From Membranipora membranacea (taxonomy: Eukaryota; Bryozoa; Gymnolaemata; Cheilostomatida; Membraniporidae): 64,000 bases of DNA. Made by a program: the position numbers and the translations under genes. The stretch is from NCBI GenBank assembly GCA_914767715.1, contig OU612075.1, positions 16,428,001-16,492,000 on the forward strand, read 5' to 3'. The notes beneath the pieces were generated by a model. The model was not told where the DNA came from and did no database searches. It saw only the letters and a list, made by a program, of their open reading frames with translations. Of the stretch, positions 2,439-63,100 are shown piece after piece. Numbering within the stretch: the first letter of the stretch is position 1; the number at the start of each line of letters is the position of its first letter.

Positions 2439-3246
2439 AGCCTGCTAGGGTATGTCTTCTAATGTGGTGGGAGGACAAAAAACACAACTTTTCAGCTGCA
2501 AGTTTTTGTCTTCAAGAAACATGCACAAAGCATGGCCAGATTTTCTCAAGTGCTTTGCTGGGGATACAATACACCCCCAATCATACTAAAATGAATTCAA
2601 AATAAAACTCAGTCTATACAAATCTGAGGTACATCCGGTTTTCAAACCAATCAAGTATCTCAAATATGCCTCTCAACCAATCATAAGTAATGGGCGGTAC
2701 AAAAAAACACCACTGGGAATTCCCCTAAAAGTCTTATTCCAATCATATTCACCCACCAATTTCTGTCACCTCTACTTTTGATGCTGTCTGTGTAATACGA
2801 AGACTTCTTACTCCAAAGTGCAACGGTAACTGTAAGCAGATATTCACCAACTACTGGTGAGACAGCTTGTTGTGTGGTAACTCGTTCATTTTACAGCAGT
2901 AATAACTCAAATATGATCCAACCAAGGAGTACTCCTTGATTCAACTCATGTGCCTACAGTACAAGAAGCATTGAATTGGATTGAGTTCAGCTTGACCTGT
3001 CAAAGTGAATATATGTTCAATTGTAGTTTTGTCATTGAACAGAGTACTATACACTGCATGCATACATGCCAAGGACTCAATGGCAGTTTTATATTGTTTG
3101 ATTAGCCTGTCTGGACAAAGCTTGTCAAGACAGGCTAATGAAATGATTGAGATGATTTTTGAAAACCTCAGTGGTCTTCATCACCACTCCTCATGAGACT
3201 AGTTCTAGCTATGCTTGTATTTTATAGTACATATCAGTTCATAAAC
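2439..3246. promoter_or_regulatory. Shared upstream region of PPAT and TIR-STING
   Basis: The PPAT start codon (2438, minus) and the TIR-STING start codon (3247, plus) face away from each other across 808 bp. This interval must hold the 5' UTRs and proximal promoters of both genes unless an upstream non-coding exon exists. It contains one 39-nt palindrome at 3101-3139. I see no convincing TATA box. Calling it a bidirectional promoter is inference from gene arrangement only. Confidence 0.45.
3101..3139. repeat. 39-nt palindromic micro-element, copy 1
   Basis: A nearly perfect palindrome: it starts ATTAGCCTGTCTGGACAA and ends in the reverse complement CAAGACAGGCTAAT, centred on AAGCTT. It is the same family as the palindrome at 8891-8926 beyond the other end of TIR-STING. 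No clear target-site duplication is visible around this copy. Confidence 0.7.
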
Positions 3247-6200
3247 ATGGCCCAGCCTATGCCTCCTACCCCTACGACACCTGGCGCTCCTGTAAACTGG
3301 CCTATACCTGTGCTGGACGAAGGACAAGAGTACCACTGCTTCATAGCTTACTCTTTTAAAGAGCAGGAGATAGGTAAGTTCATCACATACTCTTTTCATC
3401 ATGAAGTTTCGTTAATCAAAATGTTGACCTGGAGTTGTAATATTGGTTACACCAAGCAGTTCCTCTTATTACATGGTACACATTACCGCCAAGTTGTCCA
3501 TGGAATCAGTCACCAGTTATTCAGCGGAGTGAACTTGGATAAACATCCTTATACATTCAGAGTCACAGATCCAACTGTGTGTAGATGCTGCATTTCATGA
3601 AACAAGTATTTATTGCAAGCTACCATAAACTCTGCCATGGTTACACATAAACTTTGTCTTGTACAGCTGACAAAATAAAAGACTATCTGGAAGGAGTGGG
3701 ATATCGAGTTTGTATTGCCGCGGATTTTGTGTTGGGCAGAGCATTAATAGATAATATCACTCATGGCATGGAGAAATCTCGCAGAGCTGTCGTGCTTATG
3801 AGCAAAGACTACCTTAACAGGTGAGACTACCTAAACATGTAAGAATACGGTTCTGGATTTGCCTTGTAAACAGCCCTGTCTGATCTCTTCTTGGTAGCTA
3901 TGGTCCCAGGGCTAACTAACCAACAGAGCAAGAAATAAATAGCAAATAAAATGGCCGCGATCTCATTTACAAATGCAGCTAACCACTTGATGTTACAGGT
4001 CAATTACAATCACATGCAATGACAACACCGAAACTTTAATATCAACAAATGCAATCTAAGATACAATACCTGTGTACCAATGCGACTAATCACTTGATGT
4101 TGCAGGACATTTACAATAACATGCAATGACAACCAAGACTTTATCACTTCCTGCAGTTGGTTAAGGGTCTATTCCGTTAATGTATCTCAATTAATAATGA
4201 TATCGACATAACTATGAAACTCTCAAGAACTACAGGCATTACAGCATAGGTCTATCAGAGCTATCGATACGGCTTGGGTTTATGGACCAACTCTACTCGA
4301 ACAGAAAGTTATCTAGGCACTTGGCCTGGCTACCAACTGGTTGCTCTGCGAATGATGCAATAGACATTGAGGCCTGGGATCACTCCTTAGCCAAATCTAA
4401 TATTGTAATAGGCACTAAAGGCCTGGTAATCAAAGATTTACAGGTTTAATATGATGCAGTATAGACATAAATAGTCAGGCTGCACCAGTATCTAACCTGG
4501 AGACACTTGAGTATTATATATATGACACAATATATATATTTATATATATAATATATATATTAATATATAATATGACACAATTGAATAGTCGACTTCAGTA
4601 AACCGACATTTGTTGCATGTTAACAGCTCAGTGTCTAATACCAAGTGAATGATCACAATGGAAAATCACAGTCTTTTATACTAATCATCAACTGTACAAT
4701 TTAGGCGTCTATTTTGTGCAAAACACAAAGTAATTTAGCACAAAAACCATATGCTATAAAAAGACTGGGCAATAATATAGGAAACATTACTTCATTTCAA
4801 CGAGTAAAGTGTAACCATTTTCAATTTAGTCATTGTAACAGTAAAAAGCCTGCAGGGTTTTTGATTGATTGGTTTGTATTTTTACATACGATATCATGGC
4901 GAGGATGATGAAGAAATGTATGTATATGACAGCTCTTGGTGTAACTCAGTGGTACATAAAATTGTTGTTGTAAAAATTCATGAAGTAATTAAAAAAACTG
5001 CACTGGCGTTAAGTGGTACCAATGAACTAAACCTCCAATGCAAATTAATGTGTCTTATCTGCATTTGCATTGGAGGTTTAGTTCATTGGTGGTACGGCTG
5101 CTCTGGGCCTGAATTCATAGGCATTACGTGATGATACTCTTTGATTGGTATTAAAAATGATACGATTGTACAAAGGATGGGACTCGTTTCTTAAAATACT
5201 ACTGAAATGATTAGCACAGATTGAGAACATAAAATCATTGAGGTTGGTAAGCTGCAAAGCTAAGCAGCATTTCTCATAATTAAATTCTGGGAGGATAACT
5301 CTCAATGCTGCCTTTTGTACCCTTTCAAGCCTTAATTTGTTGTGCTCAGACAAAAAAGTATAAAATGCTGGAATGGCATAGCACATGATGGAACGAATGT
5401 TTGTAGTGTACAAAATTTTCAGACCTTCAACATTTAGACCAATTATTTTCAGTTTACGCATTAAAAACAGGCGAGTATTACATTTAGATATCAGGCAATC
5501 AATGTGCTTGTTAAAATTTAGTTTTTGGTCAACAAAAACTCCTAAAAATTTAACTGATGACTGTTGCTGCAAAGATGTACATTCAATCTGAACCTCCTCT
5601 GAAAAGTTATGGCGGGTTGACAGAGAAATATTCATAATAACTGTCTTATTTGCATTTAGAAGCATAGAGTTTTCCTCGGGCCATCTTTGTGTAGCGTCTA
5701 ATGCAGGCAATATTGCGCTTGAGTCATTGGGGTTTGATACAGCAGTGTAAAAAGAAGTGTCATCGGCATACTTGTCATGAGAAAAATTTGGAATACATAA
5801 ATCATTACAATAAATAAGCCATAGTATCGGCCCTAATTTCGTAGCCTGTGGTGTACCAACATTTGATGGGATGAATGAAGATGAGTGGTTGGAGCTGAAT
5901 CTAACAGACTGGAAGCGATCAGATAGGAAGTCAGCAACTAATGTCGTTATATTCTCATTGAAGCAATATCTCCTCATTTTGTTGACTAGTAGGTTTGGTT
6001 GTAGCCTGTCGAAGGCTTTAGAGAAGTCAAAACCTGCCAGCTGGATGAACTTAGTGCTAGCTTTATCTAGGTCCTGGCTGAAGTCTTCCAATAGTTTATC
6101 AGAGCGTCAACAGTGCCGATGTTTGGTTGGTAGGCGTATTGATTTGTATCTACTATCTCTGTCAGCTTACTCTTCATTTTATTTATAATAACTTCTTCTG

Positions 6201-8799
6201 ACAGTTTGCCCAAGTGAAACAGTAGTGAAATAGGGCGGTAATCCTTCATTTGAGGGTAAGTTTAGACATCCACATCAAAACCTCAACTCGTAAGTTGGTG
6301 CACTTTTTTCATCCAGGGGTGATGGTTTTCTATTATTTGGAGCATGGTTGATAATGCAATTCCACTACGAGCAACCCAGGCAATGATCATACACTTAAAC
6401 TCGACAAACATGTGTCTTATGTCTCGTAATGACCTTGGTAAGCCGGTGACACCACAATTTCCCAGGTGGTGAGCCTTAGATAAATGGCTACTTCAATGGG
6501 AACAACAATGACCGCTAGCCTCTAAACATTAGCGCTAGCTTCTAATGCAGTATATCCGGGATGATAGATCAATACAAAATAACTATCTATTTTCTCTATG
6601 TCCAGCGACTGGTTTGACCACGAAACTCTACTTATGATACATAATAACCAAACCCATCAGAGACAGATGATTATTCCTGTGAATATCAATCTACCCGAGG
6701 ATGAGCTGAAGTCTACCCGTCTCGGCGTATACTCATATCAATATCTCAACTATAAGGGCAGTGAATACGATCTTTACAGAATCGGTCAAGCTTTGGCAGG
6801 TAGGCTGTTATTTACTTACCTGCCAATAGTATCAGTTTTTATCATAGAAAACCCCTAGGGCTTGTTAAATCACCCAAGGTTTTATTTTATGTAGGATACA
6901 GTGTTTCAACTTTACTCTTTAAGTTGATAATTATGTCAGATTGTTCCTATTATACTATGTCAAATCCAGGTGTACTGTACCAGTTAACTTGTTCAGCTAC
7001 TAGTCTGATATGACTACTTGATGACTACACGGTGCCATGAATTAAATATCTACTTATTGTTGAACATGCAGTTGTTTGAAAGATAGATCACTGTTTTGTT
7101 TCACTTCAGGTGATGATATTCCTCTGCAGGTTTGTTTACCATGTGGTAATGTAGCCCAGGGATTAGTGTGGACCTACTACTATGGATACTTGAAGCTAAT
7201 ACTCCCAGGTAAAATTTATCAAATGGCTCCAAAGAATTATGAATTCCAAACAACGATGATGGATGTATTTTTGATGTATTTAAAGTTATTAAAAACTAAA
7301 ATAATTAGTATGGTGATGTATGTAATGCAAGACTAGCTAAACCAAGTAGTCTCTACGCTACAAGCCCTTGAATGAACTGTGCGTAGCAAAACATTTAAAT
7401 TCACAGACCAAAGCAATTTTCATACAGGCAGTTATTACTGCTGTATTTATGAAAGATTACAGTAAACAAATTCTTACTCAGTGTTTTAGAAGTAGTGGCT
7501 GAAATTCGTGATTATCTCCTCCTGACTTTGAACTTCTCTTGTGAAAAGTGTATTCTTCTTGGTTAAAATTATAAATAACTTTATGAATTGTCCCCCCCCC
7601 TGTCCAATTAAGTTGAATGTTATTGGTATTTAGTTGACTGTATTATATGAGTCCAATTAACTACAACACCCATATTAATTATATCGTCATAGGCTGAATT
7701 TCTCACACTGACATATTTCTGTTTTCAGATTTAAAAAGTAGATGCGATAATTCTACTCTTGCCAAAGAGAAGAAGATCTCAATTGTCCCCAAAGTATTTA
7801 TACTGGTACCAGATAATGGTTTTTGTCACGACACCATCACAGGCTGTGATCCTAACATTACTGATTTTGGTCTCCTGGACGCCATAACACGTACAAGAGC
7901 TGGGGTTATCGGTAGAGAGTACAGCAACACTATATACAAGGTGAAAGGCTCAGGTGAAAAGGTAAGTTAGTTATTTCAATTTATCTTTATCACCAAAACA
8001 CAATACCACACTTTATCTTATTATGGCAGCATTTGGCGACAGGCTGCAACTCTTAGTCACTGAATTTCAGCTTAGATACCCCTGATGGACCATAAGAAAA
8101 GTAACATCAAAATCAGAATCATGACCAGCTGTTAGTATAATATGCCTATAGTTACAATCTTCATCGAATGATTTATAATAATTTTTACCAGGAGTATTAC
8201 GCGCCTGTAGAATATGCCACCCCTATACTCTCCATGTATGAGATGTGTCTAGAGGGAATATCGGGACTGCCAGACGAAGAGAAGCGACACCAGATAAGAA
8301 ACTTCAAAGACATGCTCAACCAGGTACTCTCCCATAGCAAAGTGGCTACGGAGGGAACACGATTTTCATTTAAAATCATCTACTATCAAGGTTAGCTTTT
8401 TTGGGAAATGTTAAAGGGAACTAGCTAAATAAAATACTATATAGCTGAACAGATAGGCTGGGAAAGTATCCTAATTCTCGATTAGACATAAAGTTGTTCA
8501 TATATGACGAGGACAATTAACACTGCAGGCCGAATACACAACCTTGCGGTATATAGAAAAATGGTTAGTTTTACATAAATTCAAAACTTTCAAGGCCAGT
8601 TCCCTACCTGACATTGTATAATCTAGCATTGTTATGTATGATAAATATATAGATAGACAAATCATTGTTCTCTAATACAGCCGGAGAGGATGGAAAAGCA
8701 GAGGTCGCCTCTAAAATTATAGAGACCATTGAACAGGAAGACGCCACTATGAAAACAACTAGAGAGCAGTTTGAGACTGCCAGCCTGGTCGGGATGTAG
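3247..8799 (+). CDS. TIR-STING fusion protein (TIR domain + STING cyclic-dinucleotide-binding domain)
   Basis: Seven exons, 3247-3373, 3667-3820, 6606-6799, 7110-7208, 7729-7961, 8192-8390 and 8681-8799, all with GT-AG borders and matching phases, encode 374 residues. Residues about 28-158 are a TIR domain: box 1 YHCFIAYS (29-36), a GYRVCIAADF..G..LIDNI segment and SDWFDHE (94-100), whose Glu100 sits where the NADase glutamate lies in SARM1-type TIRs. Residues about 159-355 are a STING ligand-binding domain opening NVAQGLVWTYYYGYLKLILP (172-191). With a constant offset of 16 the human pocket residues R232, R238, Y240, E260 and T263 align with R248, R254, Y256, E276 and T279; human Y163 and Y167 align with Y181 and Y185. 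There are no membrane helices and no PLPLRTD-type TBK1 site or pLxIS motif; the protein ends after a short charged tail. ATG 3247 has a strong Kozak context; an in-frame ATG at 3193 would add a hydrophobic 18-residue leader. Role inferred: cyclic-dinucleotide sensor with a possible NAD+-cleaving effector. Confidence 0.93.
3971..4143. repeat. Two diverged tandem copies in TIR-STING intron 2
   Basis: A segment with CACTTGATGTTACAGG followed by a CACATGCAATGACAAC block recurs about 106 bp later with CACTTGATGTTGCAGG and AACATGCAATGACAAC. The two copies occupy about 3971-4040 and 4077-4143. No coding potential is seen. Confidence 0.55.
5017..5095. repeat. Hairpin with ~30-bp stem at the 3' end of a LINE fragment
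   Basis: The left arm, with CAATGAACTAAACCTCCAAT, is repeated as its reverse complement in the right arm, leaving a loop of under 20 nt. The right arm overlaps the last codons and stop of the antisense reverse-transcriptase frame, so this could be a structured retrotransposon 3' end or an independent snap-back insertion. Confidence 0.65.
5078..6249 (-). mobile_element. Degraded non-LTR retrotransposon, reverse transcriptase
   Basis: A minus-strand frame (5078-6091) holds a reverse-transcriptase core: motif A FDFSKAFDRL, a motif B variant GTPQATKLGP (normally GxPQGSxLGP), motif C KYADD, then the usual LINE connection region (VKFLGVFVDQKLNFNKHI). The part before motif A, including DYRPISLL, is in a different frame at 6067-6249, so a frameshift separates the two halves. 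No endonuclease domain is visible. It lies antisense in intron 2 of TIR-STING and is a dead 5'-truncated copy of a Jockey/CR1-like element; the clade assignment is tentative. Confidence 0.85.
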
Positions 8800-8882: not shown

Positions 8883-8888
8883 AATAAA
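8883..8888 (+). terminator. Candidate poly(A) signal of TIR-STING
   Basis: AATAAA lies 84 bp after the TIR-STING stop codon. A second AATAAA at 8927-8932 is part of the 8-bp duplication around the palindrome described next, so the insertion appears to have duplicated the signal. Confidence 0.55.
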
Positions 8889-8934
8889 GGTTAGCCTGTC
8901 TTAACAAGCTTTGTTAAGACAGGTTAAATAAAGG
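8883..8934. mobile_element. 36-nt palindromic micro-element with 8-bp target-site duplication
   Basis: A 36-nt near-perfect palindrome (8891-8926, beginning TTAGCCTGTCTTAACAAG) is flanked on both sides by AATAAAGG (8883-8890 and 8927-8934). An eight-base duplication is typical of hAT-type insertion. There is no internal sequence: the element is terminal repeats only. It belongs to the same family as 3101-3139. Confidence 0.7.
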
Positions 8935-13155: not shown

Positions 13156-26863
<13,708 letters not shown>

Positions 26864-29500: not shown

Positions 29501-32500
29501 ATGACAGGGACAGAAAAAGAAGCCAGCTTTGGTCGTTATATGGAGCAGATGGTGAAACAAGATGGAGACATCAGTAATGCTGACGCCGCGAGTCAGCAGG
29601 CTACAGAAGCTGACTCGGGAATGTTTAACGATGCGCTGAGCCTCACCGACTCAGAAAAGGAAAACAGAGCGGTGAAAAGGAAATTAGACCGCGGGAACAG
29701 GAAAACAGTGAAACTGAATATCGGAGGCTTACATTTTGAGGTAAGGATTTATACTTTTTAACCAAAGTTAGGACCAGCAGAATTTGAATCGTTTTATACT
29801 GGTTAGCATTAAGATTTTAAACTACAGAGACATTCCAACACCATCATTGTGATAAATGTCATTGACTATATTACCGAATAAAATTAAATGGATGAATGAA
29901 TATTATGAACTTTATTTTATACGAATGAATGCAGGAAGCAAATAAGACCATGTGTTTGAAAAAAAAGCAAACAAGATGGCAGGTATTGATGTGATAACTC
30001 GGACTAAGTGCTACCAATGACGAACAAACAGATATTCATGCACTAGCAGATTTCACTACTTAAGGTCTTGCTTGATAAAGAAACTCATTCTGGTATATAT
30101 AAGCTGAAGGGCATTATGGGATAAGAATTGTGGAACCAAGGTGGAAGGAAGCAATGTAATGCGGTACAAAACAAAGCCAGTGCAATGGCTTGCTGACATG
30201 CTGTGTATCATAGTGATAAGTGATGCATAAAGAAACTTTTAGAAATGGAGCTAGACTTAGTATTGTATATAAAAGTCGGAATATTCCCTTGGGTTTCAAA
30301 AAATTGTGATTAAATTTACAAGAATTATTTTGGTTACGCTGGATGATATTTATTGTATAGTTGTATAGAACAAGTTTGATCAAGTCCGGTCACGTTGCAG
30401 GCTTTTTGCCTGCGGCGTGACCAGTGGATTGGGTGCAACTCCGAATGCAGGCAAATGGACCAAACTTGCTCTTGATAAACTGTTCAAGACTTTCAGTTTT
30501 ATACTGTTGTAAGATTATTCTCCCCACTATCCAGGTTTACATTAATACTTTGAGGAGGTACCCAGACACAAGGTTAGCACGTTTAGCGTCAGATCTGGAG
30601 AGAGATGAGAGTTACAGGGAAGAGTGTGATGACTTTTACTTTGACAGAAATGCGGCAGCGTTCTCAGATATACTGCAGTATTATCGGTGTGGAGAGCTTC
30701 ATCTCGACCAAACTACCTGTGGTGCTATATTCAAAACTGTAAGCGGAGCGTAAAGATTAGTCTAGCCATTCAATTTGAAATAATCATTTATGGTTTTGCT
30801 ACTGTTTTGAAAGCCAAATTCAGATTATTGAACCTCTCAACAGCTTCAATAAAAATTTTGTTGGCCTGTTTTTTTTTTTTTTATGTATTACATCAGTCTT
30901 ATGTATAATTATAATCATAATTATATGTTATTATGTATAAATGAGGCTCAAAAAAGAATAAATGATTAAATTGACTGTGATTACAGTTTTTCTGAGTATC
31001 AAGGGTGAGTTTCTTGAGTGAAACTCTTTTGATCCAGAGGTAGAGTCACGGCACTTGATACTATTTTAAGGCTCATCCAACTCAATTATATGGTCAAGTG
31101 GATAATTTAATGACAAGAAAATTTAACTTTCACGCAGCTGATCCATTCAAGCGGCAAACTTTTCACTCTCACTTCAGGACACATTAATGCATCGTTAACC
31201 TAGATTAAGCTCCTTGCTGCTTTGCGTTAATTCAGTTAAGGGCTGGAATGACTGCAAAGGCAGACATGTGTATAGTCGTAGAATGCCACAAAATCTTCCG
31301 TGCGGTGTAATCTGAACACTAGTTGCTAGAGAAATAAAATTTGACACAATTTTCAAAGAAGATCATCGTAATAATCATAACAATCATGAGGATTTGCTCT
31401 ATAAAAGTTGTTTAGTTTTGTGTTAGTTGTGTAAATTGATGTAGTAGTAGTAGTAGTAGTAGTAGTAGAAGTAGTAGAAAGTATGACATCCATAGCTAGA
31501 TTGAAGACAAATAAACCCCTCAACCCCCACATCAGCACAGGCCCCAACTCCACTTATGTTTCCAAGCCCTGGTCAGTATATGAGGAGGTAGTTTGAGTCT
31601 GTCTTAAACTCCCTTATGTGAGCATCCAAGCTTTGCCAAATATGAAGAGTTTAAACCACCAATGGATTGGACACTGCAAGGAGTTGCCTGTCTATAATTT
31701 TTTCATTGATATGAGCAACATTTTGTGAACATTTATTTGCAGGAGTTGAATTTCTGGGAGATTTGCGAAGAAGACATCAACAGGTGTTGCTTTGGTAAAT
31801 ATGACTCTCACCGTGCAACCAATGCCATATATGAAGAGCTTGATAAGCTGTTTGAAGGACCCAAGAAAATACAGAAGCCAAGAAGCTCAACAATAAAAGA
31901 TAAGCTTCAGTTTTATCTGTTTCACACTATCGAAGATCCATCATTCTCAGTGGCAGCAAAGGTAAGCAGACTGCCGTTAATCTTTCCGCGGAGACTAACA
32001 CCTAATTGAAAAATGTATTGTATTTGCATGATTTTTGAATGTGCGCTGGAAGAGAAGCTGATGCTGATTGAGTAACACAATTGAATGCTTTTGAAATTGT
32101 TCTTCAACTCAACTGCCCAATCGCTATTTGCAGTGCAGTATTCAATCTATAGAATGACATCCAGTCATTAATTGTCTGCTCATGAAAAATGAGTGCATAA
32201 CTCCGATATCTATATCTGTCCTTAACTCTCATATATATGTATATATCTATAAATTGATCAAAAGGCATGACAAACCTCCGATCAGTTTCCATATAACTCT
32301 ATATTGTTTTCATGTATTCCATTCATTGCAGATATTTGTACTACTTGCAACGCTCATCACTATGACGAGTGTGTTTGTATTCGTTGCCGAGTCCCATTGG
32401 TGGTTCCAGGAGACCCACCTTCAGAATGGGACTGTTATACCAGCGGCAGACCCATCGCTAGCAGCAGTTATAGAGCCAGTGGTCACGTGCTGCTGTAGTG

Positions 32501-33580
32501 AATCAGATCATGAGGGAGAAGGCAATCACCCTGATAATGAAACTGATGTAGCAGTTGAGTTGGAACACCATGATGAACATCATGGCCACGGTAAGGCCCT
32601 GGAAATTCACCAAGACTATGGAATTCACATATATATATATACATCCTTCAATTAATTAGCAAAGGATATGATGGGCGGATAAGTTCAGAATATTTGAGCA
32701 TAATACTGATCTGCCAGACTCATCAACATTTTCAATGTTATGTCAGGAAATTTATAGCTTCTCAATTTATTTTCCAACAGGAGAACATCTAGATCCTGAT
32801 TCGCTGATGGTGTTCCACTACCTGGATAGAATAGCGTATGCTTATTTCATATGCGAGCTCCTTCTACGCTTCATAGTATCCTATGAGAAGAAATCCTTCT
32901 GTCAGAACACTTACAATCTGCTTGAGATGGCCTGCATTATAGCCCACAGTATCTCACTTATAGAACACGCCATCAACACTGACGCTGCAAAGAGGGACCC
33001 TCACCTGAGGTCGAAGCAAACCAGCTTTATTCTCAAGGCTTTGAGAGCGATGAAGGTCTTCAGATTATTGCGACTATATCGGTACATGGAAGGCTTTAAA
33101 ATACTAATCTACACTATGGCGGTATCTGCATACGAGTTGATGCTGGTGTTTGGCTTTTTGTTTGCGGCAGTATTGATTTTTGCTTCGCTTATTTACTTTG
33201 CTGAGGAGAGCACCTTTTATAACATACCCTATGCCACATGGTGGGCATTGGTTACTATGACAACAGTCGGTTATGGTGATGTGGTACCTAAAACGCCTAT
33301 TGGATATATAATTGGATCACTTTGCGTCGCATGTGGGGCCCTTGTAGTTGCCTTTACGGTGCCTATAGTGGTTAGTAACTTTACTGCGTACTACACTATA
33401 TCTCAGAGTAGAAAAGAAATGGAGAAACTGGGTAAAAGGAGGCATATGGCAAGAGACGTTATCAGCAAGTGGAAAGTGTTTAACATAAGAAAAAGTGGAA
33501 GCAATGTGCAGCCCCTAGGCGAGAATCAGAAATTTGGAAAAACCTCCCACCAATCACTCAAAATATCATCAATATTATGA
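29501..33580 (+). CDS. Voltage-gated potassium channel, Kv (Shab/Shaw/Shal-type T1)
   Basis: Five exons, 29501-29740, 30535-30738, 31743-31961, 32332-32590 and 32781-33580, join in phase and encode 573 residues. A cytoplasmic T1 tetramerisation domain starts at about residue 69 (VKLNIGGLHFEVYINTL). It contains the exact HX5CX20CC zinc pattern found in Kv2, Kv3 and Kv4 but not Shaker channels. S1 (IFVLLATLITMTSVFVFVA) is followed by a His/acid-rich extracellular loop (HHDEHHGHGEH). S4 at 393-408 has six basic residues at every third position. The P loop carries TVGYGD (469-474), the K+ filter. S6 ends FTVPIVVSNF, with Thr in place of the first proline of the usual PVP hinge. The ATG at 29501 has A at -3; an in-frame ATG at 29435 is possible. 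It should form a tetrameric plasma-membrane K+ channel; subfamily beyond the zinc class is not certain. Confidence 0.94.
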
Positions 33581-39142: not shown

Positions 39143-42100
39143 CTCCATAACTGTTTCAAGGAAGCTTTGAGATGCTGTAAGACAATAGTATCTTCATTCC
39201 GCATTACCTAACAACCGCTGTTTGTCTTCTGAAGGTTTGTTCATCTGTTTATAGAAGTAAAATGGGTTCCTCGCCTATAAAGAATACACGAGTTGATGAA
39301 AAACTTCCAGGTATGATAAAATGATAAGAGATGCAATGAGAAGTGGGTGTACATGTAGACTAATAGCAAGTAGCACTTTTATGGTGTGGTTTTGACACAA
39401 GATGCTTGAAAAACAGGGTCAAAAATTTCCCCAAGCAGTCATTCGTCGATCATCAAAAAGGAAAACCTCTTTATCTATTCTATTTTTATATTTGACACTT
39501 TCTGAGTATTTATTGATTTTGAATATTGAAGCATCTCAAAAATTGAAGGGGGGGGGGGCTCTGACTCATTTTAGATATAGATATTATATCAAATATTTCG
39601 GATCTACACTGACCACATTGTGAGAAGTTACGTCCCGAGAACAAAATTTTGCGGTACCCTAGCAATATCTAGAGGGCTCTAGGTGACCTCACATTCTATT
39701 AAAGTGTACAACATATGGTGCTATAGGGAATAACAGATTGAAACAAATTGAACTTGGTTCTTGCCTTTTTAAAGGAGAACTTTGGGGAGCGGAGTTTGAT
39801 CCCATTTTCAGGTAGTATTTTTGTAATTTATGAAAGTTTTCATTTGCTTGGTACACAATGAATGTATATATATATATCAAATTAAGACATTATTTAGAGG
39901 CTGGCACTAATGACATGATATTATATACAGAATGGTGACTAAGCTTATAAAGCAACACTGATAAAATTCATCGGCATAAATCTTGAAATGTTCAGCCATA
40001 TCATTAATTTGTGTAACCCAATGAATTGTACCTTTGGCTTGTATTCCTGGAAATTTCTCTCGCAAGGTTGGTCTCGATTCCATGCATGCTTTCGCCTCCT
40101 GAAATGAAAAAAAGAATTCCATTGAAGTCTTTGATCTTAGTACACATTAAACATTGGGCAACATGCAGAAAGGTTAGTGTATTGCGTCAATAGATTATCT
40201 TGATGTATGCAGCTTGGTGTGGAAAAATTGATTATAGATTATTACAAAACTAAAGTGGAGATAATATAACATATAATGATATAGAATAACTTTACGTCAT
40301 TCGAGCGTGCCAAGAATGTAAAGAATTTATTAACTTTATAATCTGTTGATGACTCTGGAATGCTAATTGAATAAGGTCTTAGTCAGCAAACTATTAGAGG
40401 AAACTTGGACTTCCTGTCGGTAAATCAAAAATCCCACATTTTGGGTCAAAGTTTTATCAGGTTTCCGTCACATGAGAACCCTGACAGCTGACACATTAAT
40501 ATCCAACAGCTGTCTTACAGAGTACTTCCACGACGACAGAAAACTGTTTTACGAGTCATACTCCAAATTTTATTCAAAGCATATCCATGTTCATGGTGTT
40601 CTTCGAATGACAATTCATAAGACCAATGATGTCTATGTTACCCACCACAAATTGGACCGATACTGTAACGGAAATGTCTGACCTGTCTAGGATGACTGCT
40701 ATGATGATACCGATCATAAGTAAAAGCACAGCTACCGCTCCGGCTATGGCAGCTATTACCGACCCAGGAAGCCTGTGATGATGAGATATATCTGTAAAAG
40801 ATGAATGAATTTCAAGCACCTTGAAAAACCAACTACAAAAAAGGGTTACCAAACTGAACTAGATTTCTCCATCATAAGTTCAGTGTTCATATTACAGTTC
40901 AATATTAGCAACCAAGTGGGTATACCTGGTCAGGTATTAATTTTTATACATGTTAGGCATAAAACTAAAATTTTACCTCAGGAGCTAGGCTTTGACTAAC
41001 ACAAACCTGGATTTGTATCGAGATGTTCACAGTTAGGCCCTGAGGCGTACTCGGGACATTTACACTCATAGTGTGCTATTTTATCTATACAAGCTCCCCC
41101 GTTGTAACAGGGATGATTGGCGCACTCATCTAAATCCAGCTCACAGAGTACCCCCTTATAACCTTTCTCACATACACAGTGAAAGTCCTCTCCTTCATCG
41201 ACACACCTGTCAAAGGGAAAAAGTTTAATTGTTCGCAGCATTGGCAACCTGTGGTTGAAGTAATAGCTATACATAAGATACACACTATGTTCTGGTCAAT
41301 AAAGAACTAGATGCAAGGACTACACTACAAAGATTTTTTTATTGTGATTGACTTGTAGGGCGTCACTGGATCAACCTAGTCAGAACATGTACCCCTGTCA
41401 TGTACCCCTGTCATGTACCCCTGTCATGTACCCCTGTCATGTACCCCTGTCATGTACCCCTGTCATGTACCCCTGTCATGTACCCCTGTCATGTACCCCT
41501 GTCATGTACCCCTGTCATGTACCCCTGTCATGTACCCCTGTCATGTACCCCTGTCATGTACCCCTGTCATGTACCCCTGTCATGTACCCCTGTCATGTAC
41601 CCCTGTCATGTACCCCTGTCATGTACCCCTGTCATGTACCCCTGTCATGTACCCCTGTCATGTACCCCTGTCATGTACCCCTGTCATGTACCCCTGTCAT
41701 GTACCCCTGTCATGTACCCCTGTCATGTACCCCTGTCATGTACCCCTGTCATGTACCCCTGTCATGCAGCCAAGGCTGAGAACATGTACCCCTGTCATGC
41801 AGCCAAGTTTGTGTGCGTTGAAAGAAGGGGTGTGTGACAAGGCTGAGAACATTAATATTTTCAAAGGCTATCATCATTTTTTGTAAGCTCTAACAAGAAA
41901 TAGGTATATATTTAAAGATACACTCAATTACAGGTGACAATGTGTCATCATTGTTCACATACACATACCTCTTTTTGAATTTTTACCTAGTCATTTAAAA
42001 AAAGGGAGGCATGGCCAATCATAACATTGCATGTAGAACTTAATCATTCATCAGCCCAAACACATACAACAACGTAGGCAACAACATTGACAACACGCCC

Positions 42101-54100: not shown

Positions 54101-57100
54101 AATGGAAAGGAGCCATATTTATGTGGACAGTCACATGGTGAGGGCGAGAGTTTTGGGGCTCAAACTAGTGTTTTGATAGCAAGGGTAATAACCATGGTTT
54201 TAACCATACAGGTAAAAATCATGACACTGGTGCAGGTGACACATACCAATGTGATTCTCAAAAAGATATTTGCTTTCTATGCTCACCCCATCAACACATG
54301 TGCCATTATGACAATTGATGTCTTCACATTCATCGATGTTACTCTCACACACTACACCATACCACCCGGGTCTGCATTCACATCTATAACATACAATGAA
54401 GGCATCATGGTGTCAACAATTGGTAGCATTCATATTAGTTACACAAATTTAAAACAAGCCCTGTACTGTATGAGTAATGCACAGATTGATAAGATACATG
54501 AACAGAATTTTCCATATGAGTCTGTTCTAAAGCATACACGGCAATGTCTGCCGATAAGGTCAGTGGTAATAACAACAGTTTGAGTTTTTAATGACACATC
54601 AATAAATAGAAGGAACTGGACACACCCTGATAATGAGTAGGGCACAAAACAGCCTTTAACATGATACAGCCAATCAGGAATTCCGTACGAAGCCAGGGTA
54701 GGGTTGTGCGTCGTTTGATGAGGATGCATTCTATTTTTACATCACTTTACATTTGATATAGAATATTATAGATGCTCATGATAGGCATCTTGAACTGGAA
54801 TCAAATGGTTTTCCCCATCTTTCCCCACCTATGTGAAACTATATAAGATGTTTACTGTAATATAATTAGCGTAAGTGGGTTTATCATTCAGATAACTCTA
54901 CTTCCTACTTCTTTGTTTGACTAACCCCCGCATTAGCTGGTGATTAGGAAAAACACTTTTTCAAATGCCTGACTTGGCACAAACGAAGGTCTAACATTTC
55001 TGTAAAAGGAATGGAACTATCCAGACCTTAGGGAACATTCTCGTTGACGGTCAACAGCGTATAGAAGTGGTGATAAAGGTACTGGACTTCTCTGATGAAC
55101 TAGTCGCTCACTGTCAAAATATGTCTGTCACTTACACCAACGAAATGGAGTTCCTTGCTTACACGCTGGGGTATATTGTTGGGTTAACTATTAGCTAGTC
55201 GCCCAATTGGTTGACCAACTAAAAAAATTCTTTTCTCTTGATGTTTGCTAAGAAACAGAAGATTGGGCCGCCCCTAAAGAGGGACGCAAGGTGCCCTAAT
55301 CCTCATACTGAGAATGTGGTACATCCTAGAAAACTAGAATGCATTCTAGAGGTGAGGCCATAGAGGACCTCCTAATCATAAGTGTGCAGCGAGCTGCCAA
55401 AACTGAACTGGCACTAATCGGCCATTGGCAGTGACACTTTGATCTTAGCCAATTCACAAGTTTGAAAATCAACAGGCAACCACTGATGGTATCATGATAT
55501 TATGATATTCTTGAATATATTTTATTTGCAGATGACACAAACATTTTTTCAACAGATTCCCATTTAGTGCAAGAAAATCTGCACAAAGTAGAAACTTGGT
55601 GTATTGCAAACAAGCTCATTTTGAATTACTCTAAAACTTTCCAGGTCATTTTTAAAGCTCCAAATAAACTGATTAAAACTCCGGAAAACTACATTTTAAA
55701 TATGGGTGGAAACCAGCTTGATAATAAATTAAATACAAAATTCTTAGGGATTGAGCTTGACAGTAACATAACTTTTAAACCTCATATTGTACAAATTTGT
55801 AAAAAGCTCAATTTTATACTGTTGCTCATGCGTTCCATAAGACCATATTTAGATATTCCAATGATGATAAATTTATACTACACATTTTTTTACCCACACT
55901 TAATTTACGGCATCGAGTTCTGGGGCCATGCAGCTGAATGCGAGATAAACCAAATTTTACTTTTACAAAAATCAGCACTCCGTGTCATTTTAAAAATTCA
56001 TCCACGAGGCCATGTAACTTCATTCTTTGAGCACCTTAAAATTATGCCGGTGCAAATGCTATTTAAATATCGCTTTTTAATATTATATTCAAAAACAATT
56101 GCAAATTGTGAGATCTGTGTGAGCTCACCAAATGTTAGTTTCACAAGAAGTAAACTTGGAGTTGTCCCTCAAAGAGCCAACAACTGCAGGGGGGCAAGGT
56201 CCCTGTTGACGACAGGTGTAAACCTGCTCAACAGGTACCTTCCTGGTGAACGGGTTTGTGAGCCCCTTGGTCTGCGTGGTCGGCTGACCAGGGCCCTGTG
56301 GGGGTGTGGTGCATAGTCAGCAGGCGCGGCGGGCGGGGTTCCTTGGGCTGTCTTCGGCCACATAGTTCTTGGTCATACTGTTAATCGGGCGGTCGCCATT
56401 CTAGTCTCTGACTACCTGATCGCTCCGCTGTCATCATTTTTTTTTTAGAAGAACCTTTTATTACAAATAAACACAAACAGAAACCGGAAAAAAAAAAAAA
56501 TTATCCGTCAGCTTATAATAGTGTTGCTTGAGTAAAAGTTAAAGTGTGTGTCAATGTGCCAATGCTTCAATGTACCATCATTAAGTGCCTCACTTTATCA
56601 TGAAAAATATAAATTCAAGGGAAGCAAGTACTAGTATTGTCGGCAGCTTTCTAACATAGGCTGTCATGAATATGTGATTAATTAATTTAGCATCATTGCT
56701 GCCTGGCCTTGGGTGATTGTTCAGCTCATAGACAACAGTTCAGCTTCAATATTAAACCTATATTGATTTATCTTCATAAGGAAAGTACATCTATGTTTGT
56801 GGAGACTCAATTAAAAGACACTCAAGCTGTCTAATCAACTCCAGGTTGTTAATTTTAGTTATCAGCATAGTACTATACTTAATATTAATTATATAATAAA
56901 ACAATAAACTGACACATAAACTGTCCCAGAAATGTCACACATCGGTTTCAGTCCACAATGAATCAGCTATCAGGCTGATCCATACAACTTATTTTTAAAT
57001 CACAAAATCTTTTTGTATCGAATAAACAGTGAGTTTGCAACAAAAGAATAAGTCTATTGAGTTCCCAACATAAAACTCGCCAGGATTTTAACTTCTAACT

Positions 57101-60100
57101 GATAATTAAAATCATTCAAATATGTTTCACAGTCAAATTCATGAAAACAAAAAGTGGCTATCTTCGCTGTCATTAATGTTAGCTGACGTAAAGATGGACA
57201 AATATAGTAGATCTATGTTTGATGTCTTGGTTTTTTTAATGATGATCATTTTATGTCAAAACATCCTGGCCTGCATATGGAGTGCAACCCTCTTGTAGTC
57301 AGCTGGCAGTCTTTCATTGCAGAAGTTGCATTTTTGCAATAAAAAAACCCAGTTTGCAATGTTCAACTAGTTTCTAGGGTACCAATGTCTTTAAGACTAC
57401 GTTTCTTAGCTTGCATGAGGTTATACTCAAAACCCAGCCTGCCTTAAAGACTTAGTTTGAGGCTGCTCTTTTGTATCACATCTTATTCTCCATATTTTAT
57501 TCTATCATGTGAGCGATTTTCAGCTTTAGAATCCAAATATTGAGGAAGTTATGGCCTCTCAAACTTCCAGGGTGATTGCCTTCAATCGGCATTGGGAATA
57601 AGCGGATGTTTCCCCTGGGGTATGTCACAACCATAGACATGTGACATAGACATTATGAGTTAGTAGTTAATACACTAATAATCACAATAATTGATGATCA
57701 AAATTCAGACCTGGGTGGGAATCGAACCCGGGTCCCTATATCTACAAGCAACGACTCTACCATCACGCCACTTGGACCAACTAGGTTAGCTGGCTGTGAC
57801 GTACCCTAGGGATTGCCGGCTGATTTTTACTGCCGATAAATTGCCGTCACCTTGGAAGTTTGAGAGGCCATAACTTCCTCAATATTTGGATTCTAAAGCT
57901 GAAAATCGCTCACATGATAGAATAAAATATGGAGAATAAGATGTGATACAAAAGAGCAGCCTAAAACAAAGTCTTTAAATCATATAAAATGGTGGTTGTC
58001 GTGGTTGAAAGAGCTTGAATTTGTGATTTTACAAAATATAAATTCAGTAGAGAAACCTACTGAAAACCTGCATGGAATAGTATCCTTACATATTTGGTCA
58101 ACTCTTGCATTCAATCCACCAAGAAATGTCATATCTGCTGAACACATGATAAATGTCTTTTCCCAACAGGATGAACACGTCATGCTTTGTTCTCGCCTCC
58201 CCACCCCACCAATGTACAGAGCTTGTCAAAACAGGCCGACATTTAACACTGAAGATAATACTAACCTGAAGCCGTTGATCTCGTCCACACACACAGCTCC
58301 GTTATGACATGGATGACTGTGACACTCATTAAAGTTTATCTGACACTGTTTGCCGACCCATCCCTCTCTGCATTCGCAGATCCAACCTCGGATTTCATCG
58401 ACGCATACACCTGTGACAAAATTAATGAATTAATAAATAAATAAGACCCATATCTGTCCAGCTGCTTATTTTGACAAGTGATAAACATAAACACTATTTA
58501 TTATTTATACATTTACCTACATGTAACAAGCCTAGTAGTTCATTAGTTCAGAGAACTTCACACCCAAAACATTTGGAGCTGTTAGTTCACAGATGATGAC
58601 AGGACAACTTCTTATTTGTAACAAGTTATTTGCACAAGACAAAAATCATAAACTGTGAACTATAGAACACTTTCATGAATATCTAAGTCATTTACTGAAC
58701 AAACCTTCTATAACACAATAACCAATCGAGTGCTAGAGACTTTTTCAACATGATGCTCATAGTTTTAAACACACATATTTTGTGATTAAATACTGCGCTC
58801 AAACTATGACAGCTGGTACTGGTACTGGACAGATGGTAGTGGTACTGGTACTAAACAGCTGGTACTGGTACTGGACAGCTGGTACTGGTACTGGACAGCT
58901 GGTACTGGTACTGGACAGCTGGTACTGGCATTCCATTACCAGCCACTTGATAATCAGCTATACTGGCACAGTTTGAACGCTTACACTAGATCACTTACCG
59001 TCATTTAGACAAGGATTACTTATACATTCGTCTATATTCAGCTCACAGTTGAGACCCTCGAATCCTTCCTCACATCTACAGGTGAACTCATTTATACCAT
59101 CCACACATTTACCGTTAACACACGGTCCGCTATCACACTCGTCTACGTTAGTCTCACATGTCAACCCAACAAAACCTGCCAGGCAGTCACACTCAAACGC
59201 GTCTACCATGTCTCTAAAATATACAATGTCATAGTATAATCCTCATTATAGGCATTAACATCGGCATTAGAAAGTCTGGATACTCCAATGATATTCCAAA
59301 ATATTGTGTTGATCTCGATGACAAATGAGTACAAGCATATAGGGTCAGGTTTGGCCTAGTTTTGATGCTGATTAGTTGAAGAAACAACTTATATGATTTC
59401 AATCTTAATTTCATTGATGCTTTGAGAATAGATGCAGGGAGAGAACCAGAGTTGATGGTAGGTTTCGATAATATCTGAACCATATGCAAAGTATTCTTTA
59501 TGACTTTATAGATGAGTGGGCGTTACTACAAACCTGCAGTGAGCCCCATTTTTACACGGGTTGGGTTTGCAATCATTGACATTTTCTTCACAGCGTACTC
59601 CGATGAAGCCGTCCAAGCATTCACAGAAGAAAGCATTGACAGCGTCCTCACAAGTGCCCCCATTCAGACATGGCCCCTCTGCGCAGTCATCTATGTTAAT
59701 CTCACAAATATCACCTGTGTATCCTTAAACATACATTATAAATTATTTAATTAGGTTATGTTGATTACGATGCAGTGATTTTTTGCAATGCGAAGGATTA
59801 TGAGGGAGGCAGATGCTATAGTTTGCATGGTTGTTTACCTGTCCACATTCATGAATAACAAGCCAAATAGTTAAATAACCTGGATATTGCGTCTGTCGCC
59901 ATCCCGGACAAAATAGATCACAAATTGACCTGCACAAATGTTTTGTAAAGGTTCAGTCAATCTGGTTACAATGCATACAAACCTGGGTTGCATTGGCATT
60001 TGAATTCATTAATCATATCCACACAAAGTCCACCGTTATCACAGGGTTCTGATTCACACTCGTTGATGTTCTGTTCACAGATCACTCCATCATATCCAGG

Positions 60101-63100
60101 AAGGCACTGGCAGACAAATTCACCGACACCGCTAACGCACAGTCCGTGTATACAAGGCTGCGAGTCACAAAAGTCCTGCTTCTGTTCACACTGTTTGCCT
60201 TTGAACCCGTTTTTACATTCACAGGAGAATCCATTTAATTTGTCGGTGCATTTACCTCCATTAAGGCAAGGTGTGCTCTCGCATTCGTCTATGTTGTATT
60301 GGCAGCGGTCACCAGTAAAACCAGGTGGACATTCACAGGTGTATCCATCTGTCTGGTCCACACATCGCCCATTGTTCTTACATGGGGAGCTGTCACATTC
60401 ATCGACTTGTACGCTGCATCTGATTCCTATCCAACCTTTTTTACAGTGACATTCCCACCCGTTTGGTAAATCGACACACTCGGCGCCATTTTCGCAAGGC
60501 TGACTCTCACATTCATTGACGTCTCGATCACAGAATGCGCCAGACCAACCAACATCACATCGGCACATGAAACTATTGATAGCGTCGACACAGGTAGCTC
60601 CGTTCTTGCAAGGGCTCGACCCACACTCATCTATATTCTGTTCACAGATTTGTCCTCCGAATCCTTTGGGACATTTACATTTGAACGAGTTTTTGCCATC
60701 AATACATGAGCCATTGTTTCGACAAGGCTGACTTATACATTCATCACTGTTTGTATTACAATACTCTCCTTCCCAACCTGATGTACATATGCACTCAAAG
60801 GCAGCAATTTTATCAATGCAGATGGCGCCATTTTGACAGCGATTGTCTCCGTCTAGTGCTTCACAGTCATCAATATTGATTTCACAGTAAGTTCCAGTAT
60901 AACCTGAAACGCAGGCACATGTGAAAAAGTCATCACCATCAATACAACGACCACCGTGCATACAAGGGTCGCTTAAACATTCATTCAAGTTTATCTCACA
61001 AAGTAAACCAGCAAAGCCAGGCAAACATGCACAGCGGTAATTGCCTATACCATCAATACACTGGGCTCCATTGGTGCATGGATTTGAATCGCAGTCATCA
61101 ATATTAGTTTCGCAGTGCTTGCCTGTAAAGCCTACCAAACATAGGCATTTAGAACCATTGAAAAGATCTCTACATTTGCCACCGTTTGAGCAAGGGTTGC
61201 TTTCACAGTCATCTATATTCTGCTCACAGTGATCTCCAGTCCAGCCCGCTGTACACTCACAGAGGTAGTCATTCTGTAGATCAGTGCAGTCTCCCCCATT
61301 CATACAAGGTGTCGAAGCGCACTCAGGGAAGTCTATCTCACAGTGAGCACCCATAGTTCCTTTGAGGCATTCACACGTGTAGCCATTAGCTCCATCTCTG
61401 CAGGTTCCTCCCAAAGCACATGGTGAGCTCTCACACTCATTAAGGTTTATTTCGCAGCTATCGCCGGTGAACCCTGGGTGACAGTGGCAGAGGAAATCAT
61501 TGATTTTTTCAACACACCTCCCATCATTTTCGCAAGGTTCGCTCTCACAGTATTTCAGCCTTTTTGCACATCTAGGACCTTCAAATCCAAGAGCACACAG
61601 GCATTTGAAAGCATCACCAGGTAAATTGGTACAAGTTCCATCATTTTGACAAGGATATGATTCACAGCTGTTGCTGTTGATTGTGCAATTTGTTCCCTCC
61701 CAACCACTGTTGCAATGGCACATGCCATCAACACAGCTACCATGCTGGCATATGTTCACCTCACATGGGTCTGTCCTTGTGTCGCATGTCAATCCATAGT
61801 AGTGGTCAGGACAGACACAGACTGGTACGTTCCCTTCATTAATATGGCATCTACCATTATGCTGACAGTGAAGGTATCCGTGGACAGGGTTGTATTGGTC
61901 ACATGGTTCAATAGCAATTTGACAGTTTGTGCCAGCATAACCTCTTGAACAATCACATTCATAGCGACTGATTCTATGATGGCATTTTCCGCCATGTTGA
62001 CACGGATCACTCAAGCATTCATCTTCGTGTATCTCGCAGCGCTCTCCTAGAAACCCCTGAAGGCATATACATCGAAATCCAATAAGCAGATCACGGCAAC
62101 TTCCCCCATTCAAACACGGGGAACCTACACAGGCATCAATACCATACTGGCAGTGAGGCCCTGACCAATTTTCAGTACATACACACTCGTATCCCTCGAG
62201 TAAAGGCTTGCACAAGCCTGAGTTGAAGCAAGGGTCAGACTCACAATAGTCAATCCTATGGTCGCAAAGCTCACCAGTCCATCCAAATTCACAGTGACAG
62301 TGGAATGTTTCTCCTTCATTGATGCATTCACCATTGTCTGAACATGGAGCTTCAGCACAAGCATCCTGCTCAATATCACATCTTAGGCCTAGCATACCTG
62401 CCGGACAGAAACATTGAAATCTGTTCAACATGTCAACACAAGTAGCACCTTGTTCGCAAGGAGCTGAGAGGCATTCATTCAGTTGTATATTGCATGTTTC
62501 TCCAGTCCAGCCAGGCTTGCAGAGGCAAGCAAATGCGGTTTGCAAGTCAACACAACCAGCATTATTCATGCATGGTTTGTTCTCGCAGGCGTTAGTCTCG
62601 CCCTCACATTGGTGGCCTTCATACCCAGATTCACAATGGCAGCGATAGCCATTGTCCATATCCTCACAACGTCCTGTTGGAGAGCAAGGGGAGCTGTCAC
62701 ACTCGTTGATATCAACAGAGCAATCGTGTCCAACAAAACCACTTCTGCAGTAACACTTATAGTGTTGCCCTAGATCCTGACAAGTACCATCATGCTCACA
62801 TGGTGATGCTTCACATAAATCGATGTCAATAGAGCAGTCTACACCTGTAAATCCGTCCAAACATTCACAAATGTATGCAGAGTTTCGCTTCACAATTGTT
62901 TGGACTCCTCTTTTGACAAGTAAATGATCAGTATCAAGACGCTTACCATACTTCACTGGGGCGGCTTCACGGTATGGTATGCTCAATTCATCGGACGTAC
63001 TGATGAGAGCAGGGATGTGCGTTATACTATAATATGACCTGTTTCTGATGTTAGTAGAATTATCACCCTTACGCTTATCAAAAGAAGTGAGCTGGTCATA

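Follow-up and report, generated by a model that had tools for sequence, protein, structure and literature searches.

A predicted TIR-STING gene in the bryozoan Membranipora membranacea joins a TLR-like TIR domain to an animal-type STING domain

On its chromosome 11, the bryozoan Membranipora membranacea carries one intact-looking gene that is confirmed, as a prediction from sequence, to encode a TIR domain joined to a STING domain. The gene lies in the 64,000-nucleotide stretch of DNA analyzed here (the window). TIR-STING proteins have been reported in the oyster and in the annelid Capitella (PMC6723221; PMC8218723), and the Membranipora gene adds Bryozoa to this known animal architecture. Among the literature matches listed, which cover the literature in part, no title or abstract mentions a bryozoan TIR-STING. 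Most work on animal TIR-STING has been done in the oyster, and a published account calls what the TIR domain does there unclear (PMC10732462). On balance, and with a modest leaning, we read the locus as one functional gene whose product would be a cytosolic cyclic-dinucleotide receptor signaling by TIR assembly.

Gene model and splicing

The splice model was rebuilt from the window DNA and comprises seven exons on the forward strand, separated by six introns that are all GT-AG and have consistent phases; the joined exons amount to 1125 nt, encoding 374 residues and a stop codon. The initial annotation had described a complete, intron-containing animal gene of this make-up, and the reconstruction bears this out. 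Exon 1 (3247..3373, residues 1-42) provides the start codon, a Pro-rich N-terminus and the first TIR strand; its donor reads GTAAGT, and its ATG has A at -3 and G at +4. The position of the start codon is uncertain, because an in-frame ATG is also present at 3193. This alternative upstream start (3193..3246, +) would add 18 residues (MRLVLAMLVFYSTYQFIN), an extension with a hydropathy of at most 1.19. Exon 2 (3667..3820, residues 43-93/94) contains the TIR core with Cys58 and the BB loop DFVLGR, and was also recovered in the TIR_2 search of the genome (as locus L031). It is followed by the 2,785-bp intron 2 (3821..6605, +), which splits the TIR domain and contains, on the opposite strand, a reverse transcriptase fragment (5081-6106; RVT_1, 2.2e-13). 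Exon 3 (6606..6799, residues 94-158) completes the TIR domain with W96-F-D-H-E100 and starts the linker, which continues in exon 4 (7110..7208, residues 159-191), where the first STING helix is also encoded (PF15009 positions 1-27). The STING ligand-binding domain occupies exon 5 (7729..7961, residues 192-269, with R248, R254 and Y256; PF15009 positions 21-99) and exon 6 (8192..8390, residues 270-335, with E276, T279 and P280; PF15009 positions 84-159), and ends in exon 7 (8681..8799, residues 336-374), which also encodes a short tail and the stop codon. Two AATAAA signals, at 8883 and 8927 (8883..8932, +), lie 3′ of the stop.

Scored with a simple splice-site matrix of our own, the six donors fall within the top 0.3-4.5% of the gene's 309 GTs, and five of the six acceptors within the top 0.9-3.8% of its 343 AGs. 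The exon-6 acceptor is weak, as 23% of these AGs score equally well on the same simple matrix. A bacterial contaminant, already discounted in the initial annotation, is ruled out by the introns, the chromosome-level animal contig and the TLR-like TIR domain.

The junction of exons 3 and 4 (6799/7110) is where the locus would divide if it comprised two separate genes, one for the TIR that stops short of 7110 and one for the STING that starts only after 6799. Exon 3, if left unspliced, would reach a stop at 6858, and a single ATTAAA is present at 7041 in intron 3, so a TIR-only product is possible. A separate STING protein is harder to accommodate: the predicted 374-residue protein has no Met between positions 115 and 284, leaving exons 4-5 without an ATG start for it. 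Moreover, intron 3 lacks AATAAA, whereas two such signals follow the stop at 8799; the reading phase is preserved over the junction; and the oyster protein, which has the same domain order, aligns across it. We therefore regard two separate genes as highly improbable.

Domains of the predicted protein

TIR and STING profiles had been expected to match one protein, and they do so in Pfam: STING_LBD (PF15009) at 4.2e-41 over residues 172-355, TIR_2 (PF13676) at 8.8e-18 over residues 32-144 and TIR (PF01582) at 2.5e-14 over residues 29-129. The Pfam models CAP12-PCTIR_TIR and ThsB_TIR score under their cut-offs, and PF15009 is the only STING family that the scan found. The best PDB sequence match is the 'Metazoan TIR-STING fusion' of Crassostrea gigas (6wt6/6wt7), with an E value of 8.1e-37 over residues 11-334; this match extends over both domains and is far beyond chance. 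The oyster architecture proposed for the protein thus holds, with the oyster protein as its closest solved relative.

The initial annotation had also described a two-domain TIR-STING in which the membrane bundle is missing. This agrees with a hydropathy scan, in which the best 19-residue Kyte-Doolittle window reaches 1.31 and no transmembrane span is predicted. Animal membrane STINGs (human 6nt5, Nematostella 5cfl) have the ligand-binding domain and pocket in common with the Membranipora protein, which, unlike them, lacks the four-helix membrane bundle and shows no C-terminal tail motif by eye. Specifically, no TBK1/IRF3 motif was seen when the tail was read by eye.

An animal-type STING half

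The STING domain is 29.7% identical to human STING, 35.2% to the oyster domain, 36.7% to that of Nematostella and 35.0% to chain 8ydn; the human reference sequence is identical to PDB chain 9ijn. In the alignment of the ligand pocket, 13 of the 20 compared human positions are identical. Ten of the positions are counted here as ligand contacts. Nine of these ten are identical to human (Y181, G184, Y185, R248, R254, Y256, E276, T279 and P280), and the tenth is T180 in place of human S162. The nine align with human Y163, G166 and Y167, R232, R238 and Y240 (the three from exon 5), and E260, T263 and P264 (the three from exon 6). Where the oyster TIR-STING has Gly-Val in its pocket, human and Membranipora both have Thr-Pro. 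Judged from PF15009 and this pocket, the STING half is animal-type, and the aligned residues are those of the pocket of a cyclic-dinucleotide-binding STING dimer.

STING and cGAS-like genes in the genome

The genome searched comprises 339,339,785 bases in 18 contigs, with the window on chromosome 11 (contig C11, 23,367,560 bp). The published assembly is described as 339.4 Mb in 21 scaffolds, with 11 chromosomes (chromosome 11 measuring 23.37 Mb), a 14.7-kb mitochondrion and a BUSCO score of 82.3% (PMC10290214). Two genome searches with STING_LBD, at E up to 0.001 and up to 10, returned three candidates, all three of which are exons (4, 5 and 6) of the TIR-STING gene, and none of 14 control genomes was matched. 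No STING exon was found outside this gene at E up to 10, in a search that a strongly diverged STING could escape. On this basis the fusion would seem to be the animal's sole STING, and since no STING exon was found elsewhere, membrane STING may have been lost in Membranipora.

This bears on a different role for the protein, namely that of a non-signaling sink or brake for cyclic dinucleotides. The tail in which no TBK1 motif was seen by eye would fit such a role, but no other STING was detected with which a sink could compete, and a sink would not need an intact TIR domain. We consider this quite unlikely.

Candidate partners are found among the cGAS-like genes. A genome search with Mab-21 gave 18 matches from 37 candidates, and scanning all 18 loci for motifs revealed GS together with an acidic pair in the open frames of four (L010, L014, L015 and L016); 13 of the 18 were translated. 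L015 (C2:19324009-19324584) has Ank and Mab-21 domains in Pfam, and its enzyme part matches the PDB entries 4jlx (7.5e-7, 'Uncharacterized protein') and 9elx (2.1e-6, cyclic GMP-AMP synthase). L016 (C10:3994095-3994679) combines a Mab-21 match and a GS...PDEFD motif with ankyrin repeats recognized by eye. The cGAS-like motifs of the pair read GS...NEFD or GS...DEFD, and by sequence we put forward both as ankyrin-cGAS-like genes and candidate partners of TIR-STING. The sole Mab-21 match listed on the TIR-STING chromosome lies about 4.3 Mb from the gene. Six of the Mab-21 matches (L018 and L020-L024, C10:11064951-11443677) are short, resemble one another in score and extent, lie within 0.38 Mb and have the look of a tandem family.

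A TLR-like TIR half

The best PDB matches of the TIR half are TIR domains of TLRs, with TLR6 (42.2 bits) and TLR1 (41.1 bits) at the top. The list continues, after other TLR chains, with a plant TIR (29.5 bits) and the oyster TIR-STING (29.2 bits), and further weak matches are a bacterial TIR (25.4 bits), MyD88 (25.1 bits) and the NAD hydrolase AbTIR (24.7 bits). SARM1 is not among the 42 PDB matches at E up to 1. Pairwise scores, for which TLR1 was picked because it was a top PDB match, are 122 for TLR1 (90 residues), 104 for the TIR of the oyster protein and 50 for human SARM1, each above every shuffle. By these sequence comparisons the domain is nearer to human TLR1 than to SARM1 and looks to be of TLR stock. 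TLRs join their TIR to leucine-rich repeats, whereas the Membranipora protein joins it to STING.

TIR assembly is favored over a TIR NADase, and several features of the domain count against this preference. Both W96 and E100 of the catalytic-type W-x-x-x-E are kept, and E100 aligns with the Glu of SARM1 and TLR1. The plant TIR scores about as well as the oyster TIR-STING, and AbTIR about as well as MyD88. In a 12-row TIR tree, for which six rows were drawn from the 18 further TIR loci of Membranipora, branches are long and the neighbors of this TIR are not separated among oyster TIR-STING, SARM1 and TLRs. Finally, the BB loop has Leu65 where human TLR1 and TLR6, 7ylf and the oyster protein carry Pro. 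This last difference carries little weight, because the Pro is absent from all four aligned Membranipora TLR-type TIRs (L027, L028, L032 and L034, classed as TLR-type by eye). These same four have all lost the Trp of W-x-x-x-E, and two of them the Glu.

The main rival is therefore the same receptor with an enzymatic TIR, in which a cyclic dinucleotide would induce an oligomer that cleaves NAD+, so that the infected cell is stopped or killed as with bacterial TIR-STING. NAD+ cleavage takes this place because the catalytic-type Glu is retained, and other observations are in line with it: TIR_2 scores above TIR in Pfam, TIR models of PADLOC give matches (PDC-S66 being the best, at 4.4e-12), a retron-TIR model scores far under its cut-off (29.5 of 600 bits), and AbTIR is among the weaker PDB matches. 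The domain order is likewise that of bacterial TIR-STING, the filament of which is reported to activate the TIR NADase (PMC9402430). Set against this are the much closer similarity to human TLR1 than to SARM1 and the absence of SARM1 from the PDB matches. Furthermore, the same Glu is kept in TLR1 and TLR6, neither of which is known to be an NADase. The strand position of Cys58 is Phe in SARM1 and Trp in L026, while human TLRs and the oyster protein also have Cys; it is not a clean marker, because among the aligned TLR-type TIRs of Membranipora, which carry Tyr, Phe, Val and Val at this position, two of four have Phe or Tyr. We rate an enzymatic TIR as less likely than TIR assembly.

NAD+ cleavage could also be part of a broader scenario, in which membrane STING was lost and ankyrin-cGAS-like enzymes act with a sole cytosolic TIR-STING as NADase, resulting in cell-suicide immunity that converged on the bacterial plan. 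We find this combination rather doubtful.

The TIR_2 search of the genome gave 19 matches from 59 candidates, one of which is exon 2 of the TIR-STING gene; 4 of 14 control genomes were matched. The genome's best match (L026, C1:15194805-15195107) has a Trp-containing strand (CWQD) and a GAGDS loop. Five TIR exons with near-identical translations (L037-L039, L041 and L042, C6:26030566-26471731) extend over 0.44 Mb. For comparison, a transcriptome survey lists six TLRs for Membranipora membranacea (PMC8609888).

A proposed route to TIR assembly

In the reading that we favor, the gene would be expressed as a soluble receptor whose STING dimer binds a cyclic dinucleotide. The ligand would probably be a cGAMP-type product of the animal's own cGAS-like enzymes, or else a bacterial 3′3′ dinucleotide. 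Upon binding, the dimer would close and stack, as in other STINGs, thereby bringing the N-terminal TIR domains together. TIR-TIR assembly would then serve as a scaffold for downstream partners and signal, as in TLR-type TIRs, towards an immune response. As this is the sole STING detected, STING output might come from the cytosol instead of the membrane. For the oyster, it has been reported that neither STING nor TBK1 acts downstream of cGAS, and that poly(I:C) and DNA are bound by the STING domain (PMC8218723); the order from cGAS to STING should therefore not be taken for granted in Membranipora.

According to a review, the oyster has STINGs of several kinds, among them one with three transmembrane helices and others that lack such helices (PMC5869526), whereas in Membranipora only the TIR-STING was found. 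Because it appears to be the sole STING, a single gene could be tested here for TIR assembly against NAD+ loss, and could decide between the two with no other STINGs masking the outcome.

Relation to other TIR-STING proteins

As a bryozoan, Membranipora is a lophotrochozoan, and TIR-STING has already been reported in that superphylum, where Capitella teleta likewise has a STING fused to TIR (PMC6723221). The oyster protein has an N-terminal TIR and a C-terminal animal STING, as here, with 29% identity over 322 columns. Both proteins share domain order and spacing, and they also agree in a few residues of the N-terminus and of the linker; this likeness is weak, being equaled by 95 of 5,000 shuffles for the N-terminus and by 294 of 5,000 for the linker. 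From these comparisons, a single lophotrochozoan fusion behind both genes is plausible, and the presence of the architecture in Bryozoa would help to establish when, within Lophotrochozoa, the fusion arose and membrane STING may have been lost.

The bacterial CBASS TIR-STING of Sphingobacterium faecium also joins TIR to STING and has a catalytic-type Glu, as here, but it is encoded in an operon, responds best to c-di-GMP and cleaves NAD+ (PMC9402430). The Membranipora protein differs in having a seven-exon gene, an animal STING and a TLR-like TIR, and its locus, with introns and on an animal chromosome, shows no bacterial operon with a CD-NTase. The initial annotation had suggested that the gene might link NAD-depleting bacterial STING to animal STING. 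This part is not supported: the STING is animal-type, the TIR is nearer to TLR1 than to SARM1, and published work favors convergence. Culberson and Levin conclude that the oyster STING and TIR domains are both animal in origin and that their bacterial likeness is convergent (PMC10732462), and the Membranipora results agree with this reading of animal and bacterial TIR-STING.

Direct descent from bacterial TIR-STING, with the gene as an evolutionary link from bacterial to animal STINGs, would account for the shared domain order. The animal pocket argues against it, as do the 30-37% STING-domain identity to human, oyster, sea anemone and chain 8ydn, the TLR-like TIR and the published trees favoring convergence (PMC10732462). 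Two peptide patterns run against a prokaryote collection of 84,980 species gave 35 pattern matches, of which none was confirmed. Direct descent is, in our estimate, very improbable. PADLOC and NCBIfam scans of the protein returned only TIR-type or unnamed matches, and six peptide patterns found no relative in the viral collection.

Genomic surroundings

Among the contigs, C18 (14,741 bp) has long frames that read by eye as mitochondrial proteins in the invertebrate code, and the small C17 (L006, C17:1-10000) has two long, similar frames with the look of a Copia-type retroelement, again by eye. An Rfam scan of the window at gathering score gave no families. Upstream of the TIR-STING gene lies a divergent neighbor (776-2444, -), of which one of three scanned exons matches GATase_6; by its sequence motifs it looks like an amidophosphoribosyltransferase gene. 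Downstream are minisatellite-like repeats, open in more than one frame (21063-21452 and 41348-41883), exons of a voltage-gated potassium channel (30421-33577, +; BTB_2 and Ion_trans), and a second reverse-transcriptase fragment (55498-56313, +) that scores under the Pfam cut-off. Exons of a multi-EGF protein lie at 40999-64000 (-); one is part of an uninterrupted frame of 1,344 codons (59969-64000, -) with 27 EGF stretches, and the others were judged by eye.
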